Origin: Myxococcales bacterium | GTDB taxonomy: Bacteria > Myxococcota > Polyangia > Fen-1088 | DNA: 11,996 nt | Assembly (NCBI GenBank): GCA_003155465.1 | Contig: PMCR01000595.1 | Location: 1-11,996, forward strand | Direction of reading: 5' to 3' | Shown: positions 138 to 6,280 of the stretch, one piece after another | Layout of the letters: every line of letters starts with the position of its first letter | Position numbering within the stretch: position 1 is the first letter of the stretch | Made by a program: the position numbers and the translations under genes | Notes under the pieces: model-generated | Told to the model about the DNA's origin: nothing | The model's input: the letters and a program-made list of their open reading frames with translations, nothing else | The model's database searches: none

Positions 138-581
138 CTAGGTGCCGTCCGAGGCCACGTACTTGAGGATGGCGAGCTTGCGACCGGCGGCTCGCGCACT
201 GGCGCCGTACTGCAAGGCGTTCTCGGCCATGGCGACCATGGTCCGGTCGAGATCCACCGTGTTCCCATCCAGCGAGGCGTTGCTCGACGGGATGTCCACC
301 ACCGGCAGATCCTTGGGCGAAAGCTGGCCGTCCTGAGCGCTGGCACTGCCGATGGGGACACCGAGTTCCATGTGACCAGGCGCCGTGGTCGAAGCCGGCA
401 GCGCGGCGCTGGGCTCCGGCCGGTCTGCCACCGAGGCCATGGCCGCGGTGAAGTCCAGGTCTTTGGGACGGAAGCCCGGTGTGTCCACATTGGCCAGGTT
501 GGCGGCGAGCAGGTTGTGGCGCAGCAGCCGCACGTCGAGGCTGCGTTCGAGTTGACTGAGAGTTGCGTCGAAAATTTTCAC
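138..581 (-). CDS. flgB: FlgB, flagellar basal-body proximal rod protein
   Basis: FlgB is the first proximal-rod subunit of the flagellar basal body. It is exported by the flagellar type III apparatus and so has no Sec signal. The 147-residue length is normal for the family. The N-terminal rod motif ANLANVDTPGF is at residues 27-37. The C-terminal FlgB block runs from about 105 to 146, including DGNTVDLDRTMVAMAENALQY and RKLAILKYVASDG. The variable middle (about 50-90) is Ala/Pro-rich, as is common. The start is GTG at 581, with AGGAGA 8 bases upstream; a later start would remove part of the conserved N-terminal helix. flgC follows after 12 bases. A strong sigma-54-type promoter lies just upstream at 597-613. 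Confidence 0.95.
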   Translation of the reverse strand: MKIFDATLSQLERSLDVRLLRHNLLAANLANVDTPGFRPKDLDFTAAMASVADRPEPSAALPASTTAPGHMELGVPIGSASAQDGQLSPKDLPVVDIPSSNASLDGNTVDLDRTMVAMAENALQYGASARAAGRKLAILKYVASDGT

Positions 582-596: not shown

Positions 597-613
597 TGCG
601 AGTCGCGTGCCAG
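597..613 (-). promoter_or_regulatory. Sigma-54 (-24/-12) promoter of the flgBC operon
   Basis: Read on the minus strand, the 17 bases are CTGGCACGCGACTCGCA. Against YTGGCACGRNNNTTGCW this matches 12 of 14 specified positions, with intact GG and GC doublets 10 bases apart. It lies in the 63-bp gap between the upstream gene's stop (645) and the flgB GTG (581). Early rod and hook operons are commonly sigma-54 dependent, and a sigma-54 activator is encoded 1.7 kb upstream. The predicted transcription start (about 586) is only 5 bases before the GTG, so the Shine-Dalgarno at 589-594 would fall outside this transcript. Confidence 0.7.
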
Positions 614-644: not shown

Positions 645-2027
645 TCATGGCGCCTCCGTGGACTCGTCGCTGGCCGCCTCGGCCGACAGACGAGAGCTTG
701 CCGCGCGCGCGAGCGCGGTGTAGGCCAGGGTGAGATCACGCGTGACCTCGCCGGCGATCACTTGGGTGCGTGCGGTGGCGGCAATATCGTCGTCGTTCCG
801 CTGCAACTCGCTCTGCACCGCCTTCCAACGGGCGCCCGTCATCCTGGCTCGGCCCAGGCGCGTCTCGGCGAACTCGCCCACCACGCGCGCACGCGTGCGG
901 TCGCCGCCCGCCAGGAAAAGTTCCATGGTCCGAAGCAAGAAGTCGCCGAGCAGGTCCTTACTGGAGGCGTCCACCGCCTGGGCGCTCGATGCCATCACGT
1001 TGCCGGCGAAGATTGGGGCTCCCAGCGCAGCCGCTTTCTCTGCAGCCGCATGTATCAGGTTGAGGGCCAGCGGGCCTTCGGTGCGGCCGGGCAGGGCCAG
1101 GTAGGTCTCCAGTGCCTCCACGGCACCGTCCTTCCCCGGTAGTTCCAGCACCTTGAGCAGCAACTGGCGGCAGAAGAGCTGGGTGCTGCCATCGCACCCG
1201 CCGTGCGCGGCCTCGATGGCCCGCCGGAGGGCGACCATGGCCTGCGGGAGGTCGTCCATGTACGCAGCCACGCGTGCCGCACGCAGAAACATCTCGGTGT
1301 GCAGGGGCTCGGGCAAGAGCGTGCTGTCGAAGACACTCTGTCGCAGCTTGGCCAGGCAGGTGCCGGACAGCTCGCACAGTCGGGCGGCCGCCAGTCGGCC
1401 GAACGCTCCCATGCGGCCGGCGGCCTGATACCAGCCGGCCGCCGTGCCCGGATCTTCGCTCAGAAGGGCCATGTCACCCAGGCGAATGGCCGCCACTCGG
1501 CGTCCATCGCCGCCCAGCGCGCGGCGGAACTCCACCGCAGCGACGGTGTACTGGCCAACGCGATAGGCGCACTCGCCCCGTGCAACCGGCGTATCGCCCG
1601 GACATCCATCGCCGAAACGAAAGGCGAGGGGACTGTAGAAGACCTGGACCCGACTCTCCTCACCACGCCAGGGCACTCCACGCAACTCGTAGATTTCTAG
1701 GAAGAGTTTGCCCTTGCTGGCAGCCAAGACGCCGTCAAGCCGGCGGGTGTCGCACTCGAGCACGACCGTGTTGTGACCCATCAGGGTGCGCGGGCAAATC
1801 CGCGACCCGACAGCAGCGATCTTGGCGGCCAGGCCCGCGCTGTCGCGGGTGGTATGCAGCTCGATGCGCTTGTTGAAGGGATAGAGCGTGAGCGTCACGC
1901 TCCCGGGGGCGCGCTGCAGCGGGATGCGCTCGACCGTCGCCACCGTGGGCAGCCGCATCGGTGCTTCGCTGACCTGCGCGGCCAGCATGAAGAGAATGAC
2001 AGGGACGAACATCGCGTTGCCAAGCAA
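645..2027 (-). CDS. Secreted or membrane-anchored helical-repeat (TPR-like) protein, flagellar-locus hypothetical
   Basis: I do not recognise a named family. The N-terminus has a hydrophobic stretch (about residues 6-17, MFVPVILFMLAA) followed by AQVSEA, consistent with a signal peptide or anchor, although the n-region lacks a clear positive charge. Residues about 35-130 look beta-rich (SVTLTLYPFNKRIELHTT, then LFLEIYELRGVPW), loosely like an AMIN-type periplasmic domain. From about 150 to the end it is Ala/Leu-rich helical hairpins (CAYRVGQYTVAAVEFRRAL, AARVAAYMDDLPQAMVALRRAI) resembling TPR repeats. That layout suits a periplasmic scaffold. The gene lies between the sigma-54 activator and flgB on the same strand, so a motility role is plausible but inferred. 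The TTG at 2027 has AAGGA 5 bases upstream. The ATG at 2012 (codon 6) is the alternative, and the only one compatible with transcription from the sigma-54-like element at 2028-2044. Confidence 0.72.
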   Translation of the reverse strand: MLGNAMFVPVILFMLAAQVSEAPMRLPTVATVERIPLQRAPGSVTLTLYPFNKRIELHTTRDSAGLAAKIAAVGSRICPRTLMGHNTVVLECDTRRLDGVLAASKGKLFLEIYELRGVPWRGEESRVQVFYSPLAFRFGDGCPGDTPVARGECAYRVGQYTVAAVEFRRALGGDGRRVAAIRLGDMALLSEDPGTAAGWYQAAGRMGAFGRLAAARLCELSGTCLAKLRQSVFDSTLLPEPLHTEMFLRAARVAAYMDDLPQAMVALRRAIEAAHGGCDGSTQLFCRQLLLKVLELPGKDGAVEALETYLALPGRTEGPLALNLIHAAAEKAAALGAPIFAGNVMASSAQAVDASSKDLLGDFLLRTMELFLAGGDRTRARVVGEFAETRLGRARMTGARWKAVQSELQRNDDDIAATARTQVIAGEVTRDLTLAYTALARAASSRLSAEAASDESTEAP

Positions 2028-2044
2028 TGCAGTCCTTGTGCCGG
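2028..2044 (-). promoter_or_regulatory. Sigma-54-like (-24/-12) promoter of the helical-repeat gene
   Basis: On the minus strand the sequence is CCGGCACAAGGACTGCA, matching 11 of 14 specified positions of the sigma-54 consensus, with GGCAC and TGCA intact and correct GG-N10-GC spacing. The predicted start at about 2017 lies 5 bases before the ATG at 2012, the same geometry as at flgB. The AAGGA that supports the TTG start is part of this element, so one sequence is being read two ways. The call is therefore moderate. Confidence 0.45.
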
Positions 2045-2223: not shown

Positions 2224-2255
2224 TTTCCCTGTCATCGATCTGGCGCGACAGGAAA
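2224..2255 (-). terminator. Terminator-like stem-loop after the sigma-54 activator gene
   Basis: In the transcript TTTCCTGTC pairs with GACAGG(G)AAA around a 13-base loop: a 9-bp stem with one bulged G, starting 8 bases after the activator stop codon. There is no U-tract, so this may be an mRNA 3'-end hairpin or a weak terminator rather than a classical intrinsic one. Confidence 0.35.
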
Positions 2256-2263
2256 TTTGCCGG

Positions 2264-3472
2264 TCACGGAGCTGACACGTCAGGCGCGCGACGACGCAGC
2301 TTCTCCACCAGAGTCGTGCGGCCGAGGCCGAGTAGGCGCGCGGCCTCTTTCTTGTTGCCGCCCGATTGCTCAAGCGCCATGCGGATGTAGGAATCTTCCA
2401 GCATGTGCAGCAGGCTGGGCAGATCCACGGGCAGCGATAGACTCGCGGGCAGGGAGAGGACCGGCGTCGCTGTCCCATACGCGCTCGCGCCTTCCCCAGC
2501 ATCCGGCGCCAGGGCCACGGGCCCGCGCCGAACCGGAGGATCCAGCAGCCCGCTGCGTTCGGAGCCAGAGACCGGCTCGGGAACCGCATCGAGGTCCGCC
2601 CAGATCTCCTGTGAACCTTCGCGCACGGGCGGCGAGATTTCCTCGAGGCTGTCAAGCCGGCTGCCGTCGTGCACCTCGAGGAAAGCGGCGGGCAGGTCGG
2701 CCAGCTCGATAATGCGACCCTGCGCACACACCGACAGGCGTTCGACCAAGTTCTCCAGCTCGCGCACGTTTCCGGGCCAGTCGTAGCGCTCAAGCCGGTG
2801 CATCACCGCAGAGGTGACCGGCCGTTCTTCTCCGTGCCGTCTCCAGAAATGGTGGAAGAGGACAGCGATGTCGCCGCGCCGCTCGCGCAGGGGCGGCAGG
2901 TGAACCGGACAGACATGCAGGCGGTAGTAGAGATCCCGGCGAAAACGGCCCAGCCGCACCTGTTCGGCCAGGTCGCGGTTGGTCGCGACCACCAGGCGGA
3001 AATTGGCAATGACCGAAGTTGAGCTGCCCACCGGTTCGTAGGTTCTCTCCTGCAGCAGGCGCAGCAGCTTGACCTGCATGGGCAGCGACAACTCGCCGAT
3101 CTCGTCGAGGAAAAGCGTGCCCTCCTCGGCAATGGCCACGCGGCCGCGGCGCGAAGCCGCGGCGCCGGTGAAGGCGCCGCGCACGTAGCCGAACAGCTCG
3201 CTCTCGATGAGCGACTCGGGGATGGCTCCGCAGTTGACCGGGACGAAGGGGCGGTCGGCGCGGGTGCTGTGCGCATGAACCAGGCGCGCGAAGACTTCCT
3301 TGCCCGTCCCGGTATCACCGGTGAGCAACACGGTGGCATTGCTGGCAGCGATGCGCGTGCAGGTCGCGCGAATGGCGGCGATGGGGGAGCCCGTACCATA
3401 GATGAGACCTGGGTCGGAAGGGAGCGACTCGGAGACGGCTGCAGATTGGCTGGGGAGCGCTGTGTTCAACAT
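2264..3472 (-). CDS. FleQ-like sigma-54-dependent transcriptional activator lacking an N-terminal regulatory domain
   Basis: This is a bacterial enhancer-binding protein that uses ATP hydrolysis to remodel sigma-54 RNA polymerase at -24/-12 promoters. The AAA+ domain starts by about residue 25 and is complete: Walker A GDTGTGKE (52-59), sigma-54 contact loop GAFTGA (99-104), Walker B LFLDEIG (120-126), sensor ATNRDL (163-168), arginine fingers in RFRRDLYYRL (176-185) and WPGNVREL (232-239). A long, poorly conserved linker (about 266-345) leads to a Fis-type helix-turn-helix (363-395). Its SGGNKKEAARLLGLGRTTLVEKLRRR region (split: SGGNKKEAARLL, GLGRTTLVEKLRRR) resembles the flagellar master regulators FleQ/FlrA rather than NtrC. 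Only about 22 residues precede the AAA+ core, so the usual receiver-like or sensory domain is absent. Its ATG overlaps the FHA stop as TGATG, with GAAGG 7 bases upstream, indicating translational coupling. Likely targets are the sigma-54 promoters of this window. Confidence 0.92.
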   Translation of the reverse strand: MLNTALPSQSAAVSESLPSDPGLIYGTGSPIAAIRATCTRIAASNATVLLTGDTGTGKEVFARLVHAHSTRADRPFVPVNCGAIPESLIESELFGYVRGAFTGAAASRRGRVAIAEEGTLFLDEIGELSLPMQVKLLRLLQERTYEPVGSSTSVIANFRLVVATNRDLAEQVRLGRFRRDLYYRLHVCPVHLPPLRERRGDIAVLFHHFWRRHGEERPVTSAVMHRLERYDWPGNVRELENLVERLSVCAQGRIIELADLPAAFLEVHDGSRLDSLEEISPPVREGSQEIWADLDAVPEPVSGSERSGLLDPPVRRGPVALAPDAGEGASAYGTATPVLSLPASLSLPVDLPSLLHMLEDSYIRMALEQSGGNKKEAARLLGLGRTTLVEKLRRRAPDVSAP

Positions 3473-4029
3473 CAGATGACCTTCTTGTTGGCGTTGCCGA
3501 AGTCGTCTTGATCCTGATCCTGATCCTGCGGCTGTGCCCGCTGGCGCAAGAACTCGCCGAAGCCACGCGGCAGATGGAAGAGCAAGGTGAAACGACCCAT
3601 GCGCAGAGTCTCGCCTCCGCGGAGGCGGCAGGGCTTGCGCGGGGGCAGCGGCACGTCATCGACGAAGGTGCCGTTGGTGGCGCCGAGGTCAGTCAGCCGG
3701 TACTCCCCATCGACTAGCGCCAAGAGGCAATGCCGTGTCGATATGGTGTACTCGGGGATCGCCAGATCGTTGTCCGATGTGCGGCCGATGGTCACCGGGC
3801 CGGGGAGCGAGTTGCGGCCCTTAACCACCGGGAAAACGCGCCCGGCCAGCGCCGTTGCCTGCAGCAACTCGCTGTTCGAGGCGATCATCGTGCCGCCTCG
3901 GCTCAGGTTTCCCTGCAGCACCCCACCGATGCCGGCTACCACGAGAACCGGCCAGGGATACGCACGCACGAACGACTGGGGACCAAGTCGCCGATACTCT
4001 GCTTCGAAGTCCGCTAGGTACGCCGGCAT
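3472..4029 (-). CDS. FHA-domain protein coupled to the sigma-54 activator
   Basis: FHA domains bind phosphothreonine peptides and usually act downstream of Ser/Thr kinases. The domain spans about residues 78-150 of 185 and keeps the binding motifs: GR (82-83) in IGRTSDNDL, S97 and H100 in ISTRHC, and NG (119-120) in LGATNGTFVDD. The first 75 residues include a hydrophobic patch (PVLVVAGIGG, 27-36) and match no domain I know. The tail is a (QD)n repeat ending in KKVI. No strong Shine-Dalgarno precedes the ATG at 4029, and no alternative upstream is better. The stop shares a base with the activator start, so the two are made together. FHA domains fused directly to sigma-54 activators are known in myxobacteria; here the sensor is a separate polypeptide. 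It could report the kinase encoded just upstream to the activator (inference). Confidence 0.9.
   Translation of the reverse strand: MPAYLADFEAEYRRLGPQSFVRAYPWPVLVVAGIGGVLQGNLSRGGTMIASNSELLQATALAGRVFPVVKGRNSLPGPVTIGRTSDNDLAIPEYTISTRHCLLALVDGEYRLTDLGATNGTFVDDVPLPPRKPCRLRGGETLRMGRFTLLFHLPRGFGEFLRQRAQPQDQDQDQDDFGNANKKVI
3511..3528. repeat. Hexanucleotide tandem repeat (ATCCTG x3) in the FHA gene
   Basis: Three perfect copies of ATCCTG, with a degenerate fourth copy on the left, encode the alternating Gln-Asp tail of the FHA protein. The unit is a multiple of three, so copy-number change would alter tail length without shifting frame. Confidence 0.7.
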
Positions 4030-4046
4030 GGATGTGTCTCGCGCTG

Positions 4047-4075
4047 GTGACAGCTCAGACCAGAGCGTTGGTCAA
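4047..4075 (-). promoter_or_regulatory. Weak sigma-70-like promoter before the FHA gene
   Basis: TTGACC (4075-4070) and TGTCAC (4052-4047) on the minus strand are 17 bases apart. The -35 box matches 5 of 6 positions but the -10 box only 3 of 6. It could give basal expression of the FHA-activator pair before autoactivation. Support is low. Confidence 0.2.
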
Positions 4076-4115
4076 GCGTTTCTGTCTCGGACCTGAGGTG
4101 CACGGACGCGAACAA

Positions 4116-4132
4116 TGCAACGGCCGATCCAA
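4116..4132 (-). promoter_or_regulatory. Sigma-54 (-24/-12) promoter of the FHA-activator operon
   Basis: On the minus strand the sequence is TTGGATCGGCCGTTGCA, matching 12 of 14 specified positions of YTGGCACGRNNNTTGCW; only the CA after GG is replaced by AT. GG-N10-GC spacing is exact and the TTGCA -12 box is perfect. The predicted start near 4105 gives a leader of about 75 bases to the FHA ATG. Because the operon encodes a sigma-54 activator, positive autoregulation is the natural reading. Two GTC-N8-GAC sites lie upstream at enhancer distance. Confidence 0.6.
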
Positions 4133-4172
4133 CGCGAAAGTGTAGCGATCAAGGCGTTTGCTGCGATCAGGC

Positions 4173-4186
4173 GTCGGTTTTCCGAC
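4173..4186. promoter_or_regulatory. Candidate activator-binding site 1 (FleQ-box-like GTC-N8-GAC)
   Basis: GTCGG TTTT CCGAC, a perfect 5-bp inverted repeat with a 4-base centre; one further flanking pair extends the stem to 6 bp. It is centred about 75 bp upstream of the predicted sigma-54 start of the FHA-activator operon. The FleQ consensus as I recall it (GTCA-N-TAAA-T-TGAC) has the same 14-bp GTC-N8-GAC frame and A/T-rich centre. It could instead be an RNA hairpin. Confidence 0.5.
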
Positions 4187-4206
4187 GGCACTTCTCGCTC
4201 TTGGGG

Positions 4207-4224
4207 GTGTCGGCAAACCGACAC
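4207..4224. promoter_or_regulatory. Candidate activator-binding site 2 (GTC-N8-GAC, 7-bp stem)
   Basis: GTGTCGG CAAA CCGACAC is a perfect 7-bp inverted repeat whose 14-base core (4209-4222) shares GTCGG-N4-CCGAC with site 1. The centres are 36 bp apart, and this one is about 111 bp upstream of the predicted start. It is also 29 bases past the kinase-HDOD stop codon on the same strand, so a terminator-like hairpin for that gene is the main alternative; no U-tract follows. Confidence 0.5.
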
Positions 4225-4231
4225 TTACATT

Positions 4232-4255
4232 GGAGGATATCTAGGAGGATATCTA
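4232..4255. repeat. Perfect 12-bp tandem duplication at the end of the kinase-HDOD gene
   Basis: Two adjacent copies of GGAGGATATCTA, with GGA of a third. Read on the minus strand each copy supplies a TAG, giving two in-frame stop codons 12 bases apart at the kinase-HDOD terminus. It looks like a replication-slippage duplication. Confidence 0.8.
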
Positions 4256-6280
4256 GGAACGCCGGAGGACGCAGTCGCGCAGCCCGGCGAGCGCTCGCGC
4301 GAGGGTCGGCTCGTCGATGGCCGTCGCGCGCCGGATCTCCTCCACCACTGCTGGCGCTCGGCCCATGTCGTCGCGCCGCAAGTGAAAACCGTCGAGAGAC
4401 GCCAACGCATCCGCCAATCTGATGGCGTTGCCGAGTGACCAGCCGGGCATGGCTTCACTGCCGGCGCGTTCGATAGCTTGCGCCGCAGAGTCGGAAAGCT
4501 GCCAGGCACACGCCACCCGCGCGCCAGCCGGCGCCGAGGTGACTTCGATGCATGCGACCATCACATCATCGGATACTAAGCGGCGACCTTTAGTGCTGGC
4601 CATCTGCCGCTCAACGTCGAGCAAGAGTGCGCCCACCACAGGCTTTCCGGTGTCGTGCAGCAGTCCCGCGAGAAAGGCTTCTGCGGCAGTCGCGTCGTCG
4701 CATCCATGCGCCTGCATCAGCCTCTGTGTCAGCAGGGCGACGGCGACGGCGTGGTGCCAGGGCTGCTTGAACAGATCGGCGATGCGGGACTCGCTCGATT
4801 CCAAGACCGGGCGCGCAGCAATCTCCAGAAAAGCCGTGCGCAGGCCGGTCGCGCCCAAGCGCCGGATGGCTTGTTCTGCGTTGTGCGCAGGCGAGCGCGA
4901 AGGGCCTGTGCCGTTGGCCACCTGTACCACGCGCGCGGCCAGGCGTGGCTCTTCGGCCAGGATCGCGGCCATACCCCCGAACGAGAACTCGGGCAGAGCG
5001 GCCAACTCCAGGCAACGCAGCATGCGGGCCGAAAGCTGGGGCAGTGGTAGACCGCCGTGCTGAATGCGCGAGCGCACGATCTCGACCAGACGCGCGGCGA
5101 GGGCCTGCTTGTTGATCCGTTCAGCGGTCGGAGTCGGCGTAGGCCCGGGCGTGACCAGCGCCGCCACCGGCGCGGCTGGCGCCGGGCGAGCAGCCGGGGC
5201 CAGCGCGAGCGGCGGCGGGGTCACACCCAAGACAGTGGGCAAACCGGAGAGCATGGTCGCCCCCAGGGATTCCTGTGTCGACGCGGGGACCGTGGTCGGC
5301 GGCCTGCCGGCTCTCGTCTCCGCGGGCGGGTGCGGCGCGACCTCGGCAGCCGAAACGCCGGCAACGGCTGCCAGGAGGGCGTCACGAAACTCGCGCATGC
5401 TGGCAAACCGACGCTCTCGTTGTTTCTCGAGCGCGCGAAGTATGACCGCGCCTACGACCAGCGGCAGCGCCGGATTGAGCGCACAAGGGGCCGGCGGCGT
5501 GGCTTGCACGTGCATGATGATCAGGCGGCCCGCCGTGTCCGCGTCGAACGGGCGCTGGCCCGTCATCATTTGATAGGTCACGACCCCCAGCGCGTAGATG
5601 TCGCTGCGATGGTCCAGGTTGGCGTCGCCCAAGCACTGCTCAGGCGACATGTACGCCGGAGTCCCGATAATGGCACCACACGCGGTTCGGTGTCCGGACA
5701 CTTGGTCGCGGGTCGCGGTCAGCTTGGCGATGCCAAAGTCCAACACCTTGACGAAGTCCGGATAGTCCGGGTGCCGGCACAGGAAGATGTTGGCCGGCTT
5801 CAGATCGCGGTGGACCATGCCGTGCTCGTGGGCCGCGCCCACCGCAGAGGCGATCTGGGCCACGATCTGGGCGGCACTGGCCGGGTCGAGGGCGCCGCCG
5901 CGGACCAGCCGCTCTTCCAGCGTCTCGCCCTCCAGCAGTTCCATCACGATGTAGGGCTGGCTGCCGAACTGGCCGAAGTCAGTCACCTCGACGATGTTGG
6001 GATGGCGGATGTCGTTGACCGCGCGGGCCTCGTTGAAGAAGCGCGACACGACGTCCTTGTCCGAAGCGACCTCCGCAGCAAGCACCTTGATGGCGGCCTT
6101 GCGTCCAATCAGCACATGCTCGGCACTGTACACCTGGCCCATGCCACCCTCGCCCAGCAACCCGGTGACGCGAAACGAGCCCAGGGTCTGGCCGATGATC
6201 GATGGGGCGCCCGCCGCTCCGCTCAAGCTGCGGGCGTCCATCCCGGTACACATCTCCACGGTCGGTCCGACGCTGGGCAT
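4253..6280 (-). CDS. Eukaryote-type Ser/Thr protein kinase fused to a C-terminal HDOD domain
   Basis: Predicted to phosphorylate Ser/Thr on partner proteins. The kinase domain (about 36-305 of 675) has all key elements: Gly loop GEGGMGQV (43-50), K65 in AAIKVL, E84 in helix C, HRDLKPAN (157-164), DFG (181-183) and GTPAYMSPEQ (206-215), so it should be active. A Pro/Ala/Thr-rich linker (about 311-388) with no membrane helix leads to an HDOD domain (about 405-605), shown by AAILAEEPRLAARVVQVAN, AIRRLGATGLRTA, WHHAVAVALL (508-517) and AGLLHDTGK (538-546). The late histidines usual in HDOD proteins are missing around CAWQLSDSAAQAI, so hydrolase activity is not expected; protein-protein sensing is more likely. 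The ATG at 6280 has no clear Shine-Dalgarno; ATGs at codons 10 and 14 are alternatives that keep the kinase intact. It is divergent from the histidine kinase/HDOD operon and precedes the FHA-activator pair. Confidence 0.93.
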   Translation of the reverse strand: MPSVGPTVEMCTGMDARSLSGAAGAPSIIGQTLGSFRVTGLLGEGGMGQVYSAEHVLIGRKAAIKVLAAEVASDKDVVSRFFNEARAVNDIRHPNIVEVTDFGQFGSQPYIVMELLEGETLEERLVRGGALDPASAAQIVAQIASAVGAAHEHGMVHRDLKPANIFLCRHPDYPDFVKVLDFGIAKLTATRDQVSGHRTACGAIIGTPAYMSPEQCLGDANLDHRSDIYALGVVTYQMMTGQRPFDADTAGRLIIMHVQATPPAPCALNPALPLVVGAVILRALEKQRERRFASMREFRDALLAAVAGVSAAEVAPHPPAETRAGRPPTTVPASTQESLGATMLSGLPTVLGVTPPPLALAPAARPAPAAPVAALVTPGPTPTPTAERINKQALAARLVEIVRSRIQHGGLPLPQLSARMLRCLELAALPEFSFGGMAAILAEEPRLAARVVQVANGTGPSRSPAHNAEQAIRRLGATGLRTAFLEIAARPVLESSESRIADLFKQPWHHAVAVALLTQRLMQAHGCDDATAAEAFLAGLLHDTGKPVVGALLLDVERQMASTKGRRLVSDDVMVACIEVTSAPAGARVACAWQLSDSAAQAIERAGSEAMPGWSLGNAIRLADALASLDGFHLRRDDMGRAPAVVEEIRRATAIDEPTLARALAGLRDCVLRRS

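Follow-up and report, generated by a model that had tools for sequence, protein, structure and literature searches.

The window analysed here, a stretch of 11,996 nucleotides from a Myxococcales bacterium, carries on its minus strand, in this order, a kinase-HDOD gene, an intergenic stretch, a gene for an FHA-domain protein, a gene for a sigma-54 activator that we refer to as ACT, a further conserved gene, and flgB (Table 1). The FHA and ACT genes overlap by one base, ACT lies near flgB in a conserved gene order, and the TTG start listed for gene 645–2027 is probably too early. The element directly before flgB overlaps the likely flgB ribosome-binding region, so that a start there would leave almost no leader.

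ACT had been described beforehand as an activator with a FleQ-like DNA-binding domain, and its likeness to FleQ/FlrA activators holds in part. It has an AAA+ domain with a GAFTGA loop and a C-terminal HTH_8 domain with the FleQ/FlrA-type recognition helix RTTLVEKLRRR, but Pfam finds no FleQ-like or receiver-like domain at the N-terminus, where the AAA+ match begins at residue 29, and ACT has one of the two tandem arginines of FleQ, with G in place of the first. The residue before RTTLVEK is thus G in ACT, R in FleQ, and Q in most orthologs at loci L118–L147. In an alignment of four FHA protein sequences, the GR, S, H and N residues, which we take to have their usual roles in the FHA site, do not vary.

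Relatives were reached by searches around L010, a record titled Myxococcales. Six genomes (G819, G831, G852, G804, G808 and G847) provide loci L161–L166, which together with the window make up the seven genomes of the clade alignments. Identity to the window in the six relatives is 81–88% for ACT and 85–88% for the FHA protein; an ACT this close, at E 1e-150, is present in 6 of 18 genomes of the relatives' family, and a phylum search around G004 covering 297 genomes gave no match at E 1e-118. The kinase-HDOD gene is complete in four of the six relatives, and the L164 contig ends before it. In L161 (9367–9747) it is reduced to a C-terminal remnant of the last 127 residues, and the FHA-activator module there is intact. 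Some 35 noncoding bases 3′ of the ACT stop (2229–2262, minus strand) are mostly kept in the seven genomes and end in CTGTC...GACAG.

Table 1. Genes and sequence elements of the window, listed in minus-strand order.
Feature	Position	Strand	Remarks
Ser/Thr protein kinase gene with HDOD domain	4253–6280	-	Next gene upstream of the FHA-activator operon; Pfam
Distal palindrome GTCGG-N4-CCGAC	4209–4222	read on +	GTCGGCAAACCGAC; perfect, arms extend to GTGTCGG/CCGACAC
Proximal palindrome GTCGG-N4-CCGAC	4173–4186	read on +	GTCGGTTTTCCGAC; perfect
Sigma-54-like -24/-12 element	4132 to 4116	-	TTGGATCGGCCGTTGCA; GG and GC correctly spaced (10 bases), 2 mismatches to consensus
FHA-domain protein gene	3472–4029	-	185 aa; Pfam
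Sigma-54 activator gene (ACT)	2264–3472	-	AAA+ (GAFTGA) and HTH_8 domains; Pfam finds no N-terminal sensor domain
Canonical box	2263–2276	-	GTCAGCTCCGTGAC; TGA of box is the ACT stop codon
Sigma-54-like element CGGCACA-N4-CTGCA	2028–2043	-	Before gene 645–2027; found in 7/7 genomes
Conserved flagellar-cluster gene	645–2027	-	Without Pfam or NCBIfam family
Conserved TGGCACG-N4-SGCA element	597–612	-	Directly before flgB; one letter different in L164
flgB	138–581	-	TIGR01396 above cutoff

Twin palindromes and a sigma-54-like element upstream of the FHA gene

The preliminary description had placed two copies of GTCGG-N4-CCGAC upstream of the FHA gene, and both are present and perfect. Their centres are 36 bp apart, at distances of about 75 and 111 bp if the start is taken to be near 4105. 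At up to one mismatch the palindrome occurs four times in the window against 1.29 expected (four were reached in 9 of 200 shuffles), and the exact palindrome is found 12 times in the seven clade upstream regions and not once in 100 shuffles. The -24/-12 element has a perfect -12 half and a poor -24 half (TGGATC) that contains both mismatches. Sigma-54-like sites with up to two mismatches number seven in the whole window, compared with 6.7 expected by chance, and the element is therefore without significance by itself.

Conservation is more informative. The 107-bp module from 4116 to 4222 aligns across the seven genomes with no gapped columns, compared with 51 in the downstream flank (to the ATG) and 34 in the upstream flank (to the kinase stop). 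Invariant columns make up 13/14 of the distal palindrome, 12/14 of the proximal palindrome and 13/17 of the -24/-12 element, as opposed to 9/22 and 15/40 in the spacers, 11/86 in the downstream flank and 8/30 in the upstream flank. We accept the sigma-54-like element and the twin as a module on this gap-free conservation against decayed flanks, and not on the promoter match alone. In the element, eight invariant letters (TTGGATCG) are followed by four variable positions and an invariant TTGCA, a pattern consistent with the layout of a sigma-54 promoter. The promoter proposed earlier at 4116–4132 remains a candidate by its location, its spacing and its conserved columns, although its match to the consensus is at chance level. 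A consensus scan of 3400–4400 showed no sigma-70-like site, and the seven clade promoters contain no sigma-28-like site.

The likeness of the palindromes to the FleQ box, also proposed earlier, extends to the outer GTC and GAC ends and the A/T-rich centre (GTC-N8-GAC), which are present in all seven genomes, but not to the half-site, which is GTCGG rather than GTCA. The second site reads GTCGGAAAGTCGAC or GTCGGAAAATCGAC in two relatives, L162 and L165, where it is an imperfect palindrome. Loci L167–L169, L171 and L172, which are sisters of the clade, have the same G before RTTLVEK as ACT and no GTCGG twin, and a link between this helix residue and GTCGG is weak because of these five loci.

Counts of GTCGG-N4-CCGAC are 11–20 per genome compared with 22–41 for the reversed pattern (in G852, sites were viewed individually only among the matches listed). 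The palindrome is rarer than its control in all six relatives, and we therefore reject a genome-wide regulon. A twin, defined as GTCGG-N4-CCGAC with GTC-N8-GAC 16–28 bp further on, is nonetheless at the ACT locus in 6/6 genomes, with one match at another place in each of G808 and G831, compared with three matches to the reversed-control twin across the six genomes. The genome-wide distribution, which had been named as a check, thus speaks against a regulon and does not refute an operator. Away from the twin locus, 8 of 12 palindromes lie, by our own reading, within longer coding-like frames; the 11 regions fetched for this were picked for A/T-rich centres and are not random. The twin looks like a locus-specific and almost private operator rather than a regulon motif. 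A mixed twin, GTCGGATCGCCGAC and GTCAGAAGACCGAC, 34 bp apart, is located between two genes with sigma-54-activator domains in G808 (L202 2644–2691).

Canonical boxes at the activator stop codon and upstream of related genes

The preliminary description had joined promoter, enhancers and activator into one set. The conserved module of sigma-54 layout agrees with this, but a canonical box at 2263–2276, the one occurrence of GTCA-N6-TGAC in the window, had been overlooked. This sequence is enriched in the flagellar loci studied (58 in 717 kb, where three control palindromes number 7, 9 and 3). A box at the stop codon is found in 13 of 44 orthologs (the window, L161–L166, L167, L170, L172, L173, L130 and L133) and in none of 464 other coding-like frames; a frame filter recovered 40 activator frames and 11 of these boxes, missing those of L130 and L165, and the 44 include L122, of uncertain start, L135, L140, L143 and L145. 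The 13 boxes are not 13 independent events, since seven of the sequences are close kin in the clade.

The last residues of ACT vary among these orthologs (SAP, SRS, SQS, SVG, SMA and STP). Because the box requires the serine codon TCA, a fairer count is restricted to the 15 orthologs whose third-last residue is serine, where the codon is TCA in 13 and TCG in two (L136 and L146); in other coding-like frames, 4.5% of serine codons are TCA. The stop sites of L136 and L146 are GTCGG-N4-TTGAC hybrids that pair a GTCGG half with a TTGAC half, which makes GTCGG plausible as a half-site. Ten distant homologues share the helix motif; in one of them, L032 (a record titled Proteobacteria), the stop position reads GTCAAAAAATTGAC. 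In the 44 orthologs the exact box is within 150 bp upstream of ACT in 18, at the stop in 13, at neither place in 13, and at both in none. The distance from the stop box to the conserved sigma-54-like element that precedes the next gene is 170–247 bp in four genomes and greater in three, so that the box may be an enhancer for that element. A GTCG...GAC sequence that precedes the stop box by 16 bp was set aside, as conserved RR and D codons can explain it. Loci L123, L124, L128, L129, L131 and L134 contain a further GTCAC-N4-GTGAC box about 7.8–7.9 kb after the ACT stop. A literature search, largely without subscription papers, found no account of this operon and none of a FleQ box that spans a stop codon.

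Upstream of ACT, other lineages differ. Many ACT genes of L118–L147 are preceded by sigma-54-like sites and GTCA boxes, with GTCA-N6-TGAC no more than 150 bp upstream in 18 of these 30 other-lineage loci (including L135, which has a broken activator frame). In one group of 27 loci, 15 have the upstream box compared with a shuffle mean of 0.14; this grouping omitted L135, with its in-frame TAG, and L140, and L143 and L145 form a group of their own. Within the window's class and outside its clade, all seven loci (L167–L173) instead have an upstream site resembling those of sigma-28, T[ACT][ACT]AG-N14-[GC].CGAT, a pattern written after viewing these sequences and modelled on the general sigma-28 consensus. 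Across 1.41 million strand-bases of 43 loci, among them these seven, the pattern has 17 matches, a rate of 0.005 per 400 bases; the 37 other upstream regions contain none. The L167 site directly adjoins the assumed start of the gene, which is therefore probably placed too early. The window's clade, which combines an FHA gene with a sigma-54-like element and the GTCGG twin, is unlike both groups.

Canonical boxes also occur elsewhere in these genomes. G847 encodes a second FleQ-type HTH protein, a receiver-type relative of ACT with a near-identical helix (NRTTLVEKLRRK) and no GAFTGA, and its gene adjoins a FliA/WhiG-type sigma gene with twin boxes (L230 1483–3848). Orthologs or relatives of this sigma gene were sought in 17 genomes, of which 16 matched, and 17 loci were fetched. 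Two GTCA-type boxes 34 bp apart are located no more than 260 bp upstream of the sigma gene in ten of them (L246–L255), one box is present in two (L256 and L262), and none in five (L257–L261, 36–42% identical); a TGGCA-type sigma-54-like site follows the boxes in six clade loci and in L252. The spacings, 34 and 36 bp, are similar, a hint that proteins of one kind, ACT or a relative, bind in both cases. G819 and G847 together have 38 YGTCA-N6-TGACR sites, and 16 regions were fetched by choice. These include a GTCA box with a sigma-54-like site before fliL in both genomes (the adjacent fliM was identified in G847 only), boxes before the FliA/WhiG-type gene in both, a box between fliD and cheA in G819, and boxes beside genes without a flagellar link. 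Genome counts of boxes of this type, relative to the reversed pattern, are 12–20 versus 3–11 in the six clade genomes, 36 versus 4 and 9 in two sisters, 29 versus 12 in G139, and 5 versus 8 in G018.

Probable autoactivation of ACT and alternative explanations

We favour, at a probability of roughly 0.6, sigma-54-dependent autoactivation of ACT through diverged FleQ-type twin boxes; this and the three alternatives below are treated as mutually exclusive. Under this explanation, 4116–4222 would consist of a sigma-54 promoter and two upstream operators and would drive the FHA-activator genes. ACT would most likely bind the twin sites as dimers and turn on its own operon, and would bind the canonical box at its own stop to switch on the downstream flagellar genes. 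The FHA protein may supply the sensor missing from ACT by reading phosphothreonine, with the neighbouring kinase as its candidate partner, although the kinase as a fixed partner is weakened by L161, which keeps only the last 127 residues. From the sequence we infer the use of sigma-54, ACT rather than another regulator as the ligand, a positive effect, and the phosphothreonine input through FHA. The positive feedback loop of FleQ type that had been suggested is likely.

Binding of the twin by ACT is suggested by the outer GTC and GAC ends and the A/T-rich centre, which match the FleQ box, by the GTCA boxes upstream of many orthologs, by the hybrid stop sites of L136 and L146, and by the autoregulation predicted for the related DVU2894 (PMC4641369). 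Against it, the clade also keeps a GTCA box at the stop, and it is not obvious why GTCGG would be conserved upstream for a protein that reads GTCA as well. The G that replaces the first FleQ arginine, the sister loci that have this G without a twin, and the second HTH protein of G847 point the same way. The poor -24 half and the lack of a regulon behind GTCGG-N4-CCGAC weigh against the favoured explanation as a whole.

A first alternative is that the promoter is a sigma-54 promoter but the twin contains the operators of a different regulator, either another enhancer-binding protein or a repressor, with ACT acting only through the GTCA box at the stop and elsewhere. We consider this rather doubtful, although several observations are in its favour: the canonical box is present in the same genomes and GTCA-N6-TGAC is enriched where GTCGG-N4-CCGAC is not; GTCGG is strictly kept, as for a dedicated ligand; and G847 encodes a near-identical HTH protein without GAFTGA. 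However, Pfam identifies no DNA-binding candidate other than ACT among the genes adjoining the twin, the GTCA box type occupies this place in 18/30 other-lineage loci, and the ends and centre of the sites follow the FleQ pattern. It is quite improbable that a sigma factor other than sigma-54 reads the -24/-12 element. Two mismatches in the -24 half and the chance-level frequency of such sites in the window are consistent with it, but the conserved and variable columns match the -24/-12 layout, and neither the sigma-70-like scan of 3400–4400 nor the sigma-28-like search of the seven clade promoters gave a site. Most improbable of all is that the palindromes are RNA or DNA hairpins, for example terminating transcription of the upstream kinase gene. 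The perfect 7-bp and 6-bp arms, G-U pairing that would keep the second stem in two relatives, and a fold z-score of -2.05 (6/200 shuffles fold equally well) agree with a hairpin. There is, however, no terminator-like site in a consensus scan of 3400–4400 and no Rfam match in the window; the fixed 36-bp spacing and the fixed 40-base spacer to -24, of variable sequence, are a better fit to DNA binding; and the sites are upstream of the predicted start and hence outside the FHA transcript.

Autoactivation through the twin could also be part of a wider, class-level rewiring of activator feedback. The sisters, with their sigma-28-like sites, would have an indirect loop, whereas the window's lineage would have a direct one, having placed an FHA gene together with a twin-operator promoter for sigma-54 in front of the activator; its own operator would have become GTCGG, the sensor would be a separate phosphothreonine-reading FHA protein, and a second, canonical operator would lie across the stop codon. 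We regard this scheme as a whole as unlikely, the more so in view of the kinase remnant in L161.

Relation to known activators

Myxobacteria have enhancer-binding proteins with FHA domains, and as in those, FHA and a sigma-54 activator would cooperate here, but in the window they are encoded by two separate genes. FlrA has an N-terminal domain, unlike ACT, and in Vibrio cholerae the gene order is reportedly flrA-flrBC. A FlrA box serving the operon after the activator gene resembles the stop-codon box of the window; the sequence quoted for it upstream of flrBC is GTCA-N6-TGGC (PMC4641369). DVU2894, a Desulfovibrio FlrA/FleQ-like activator, is predicted from comparative genomics to be autoregulated through yGTCA-N6-TGACr (PMC4641369). 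Like ACT, it is flagellar, lacks an N-terminal domain, and has an inverted repeat upstream of its own gene. The window differs in its GTCGG half-sites, in the FHA gene that precedes the activator, and in its sigma-54-like element, no conserved one having been found near DVU2894 (PMC4641369).

The FleQ box is given as GTCaNTAAAtTGAC for Pseudomonas and GTCAaAAAAtTGAC for P. putida in a ChIP study, which also disputes the Pseudomonas motif itself and calls FleQ/FlrA-type DNA recognition undetermined (PMC6120874). The Pseudomonas box and the twin sites are all 14 bp long, with GTC-N8-GAC and an A/T-rich centre, but the twin has GG and CC as inner letters where GTCA/TGAC has A and T, and the window has two sites 36 bp apart. 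A model of FleQ places the arginine pair at the 5′ GxC ends and shows the A/T centre as bent (PMC10723142).

The locus offers a testable case in which the own promoter of a master regulator would have been replaced in evolution with the downstream flagellar cluster in place. The operators GTCA, hybrid and GTCGG, together with helices carrying Q, N or G, would form a natural series for the study of FleQ/FlrA-type DNA recognition, and an operator that several lineages carry over the stop codon of genes with differing last residues would be a clear instance of regulatory sequence constraining the end of a gene.
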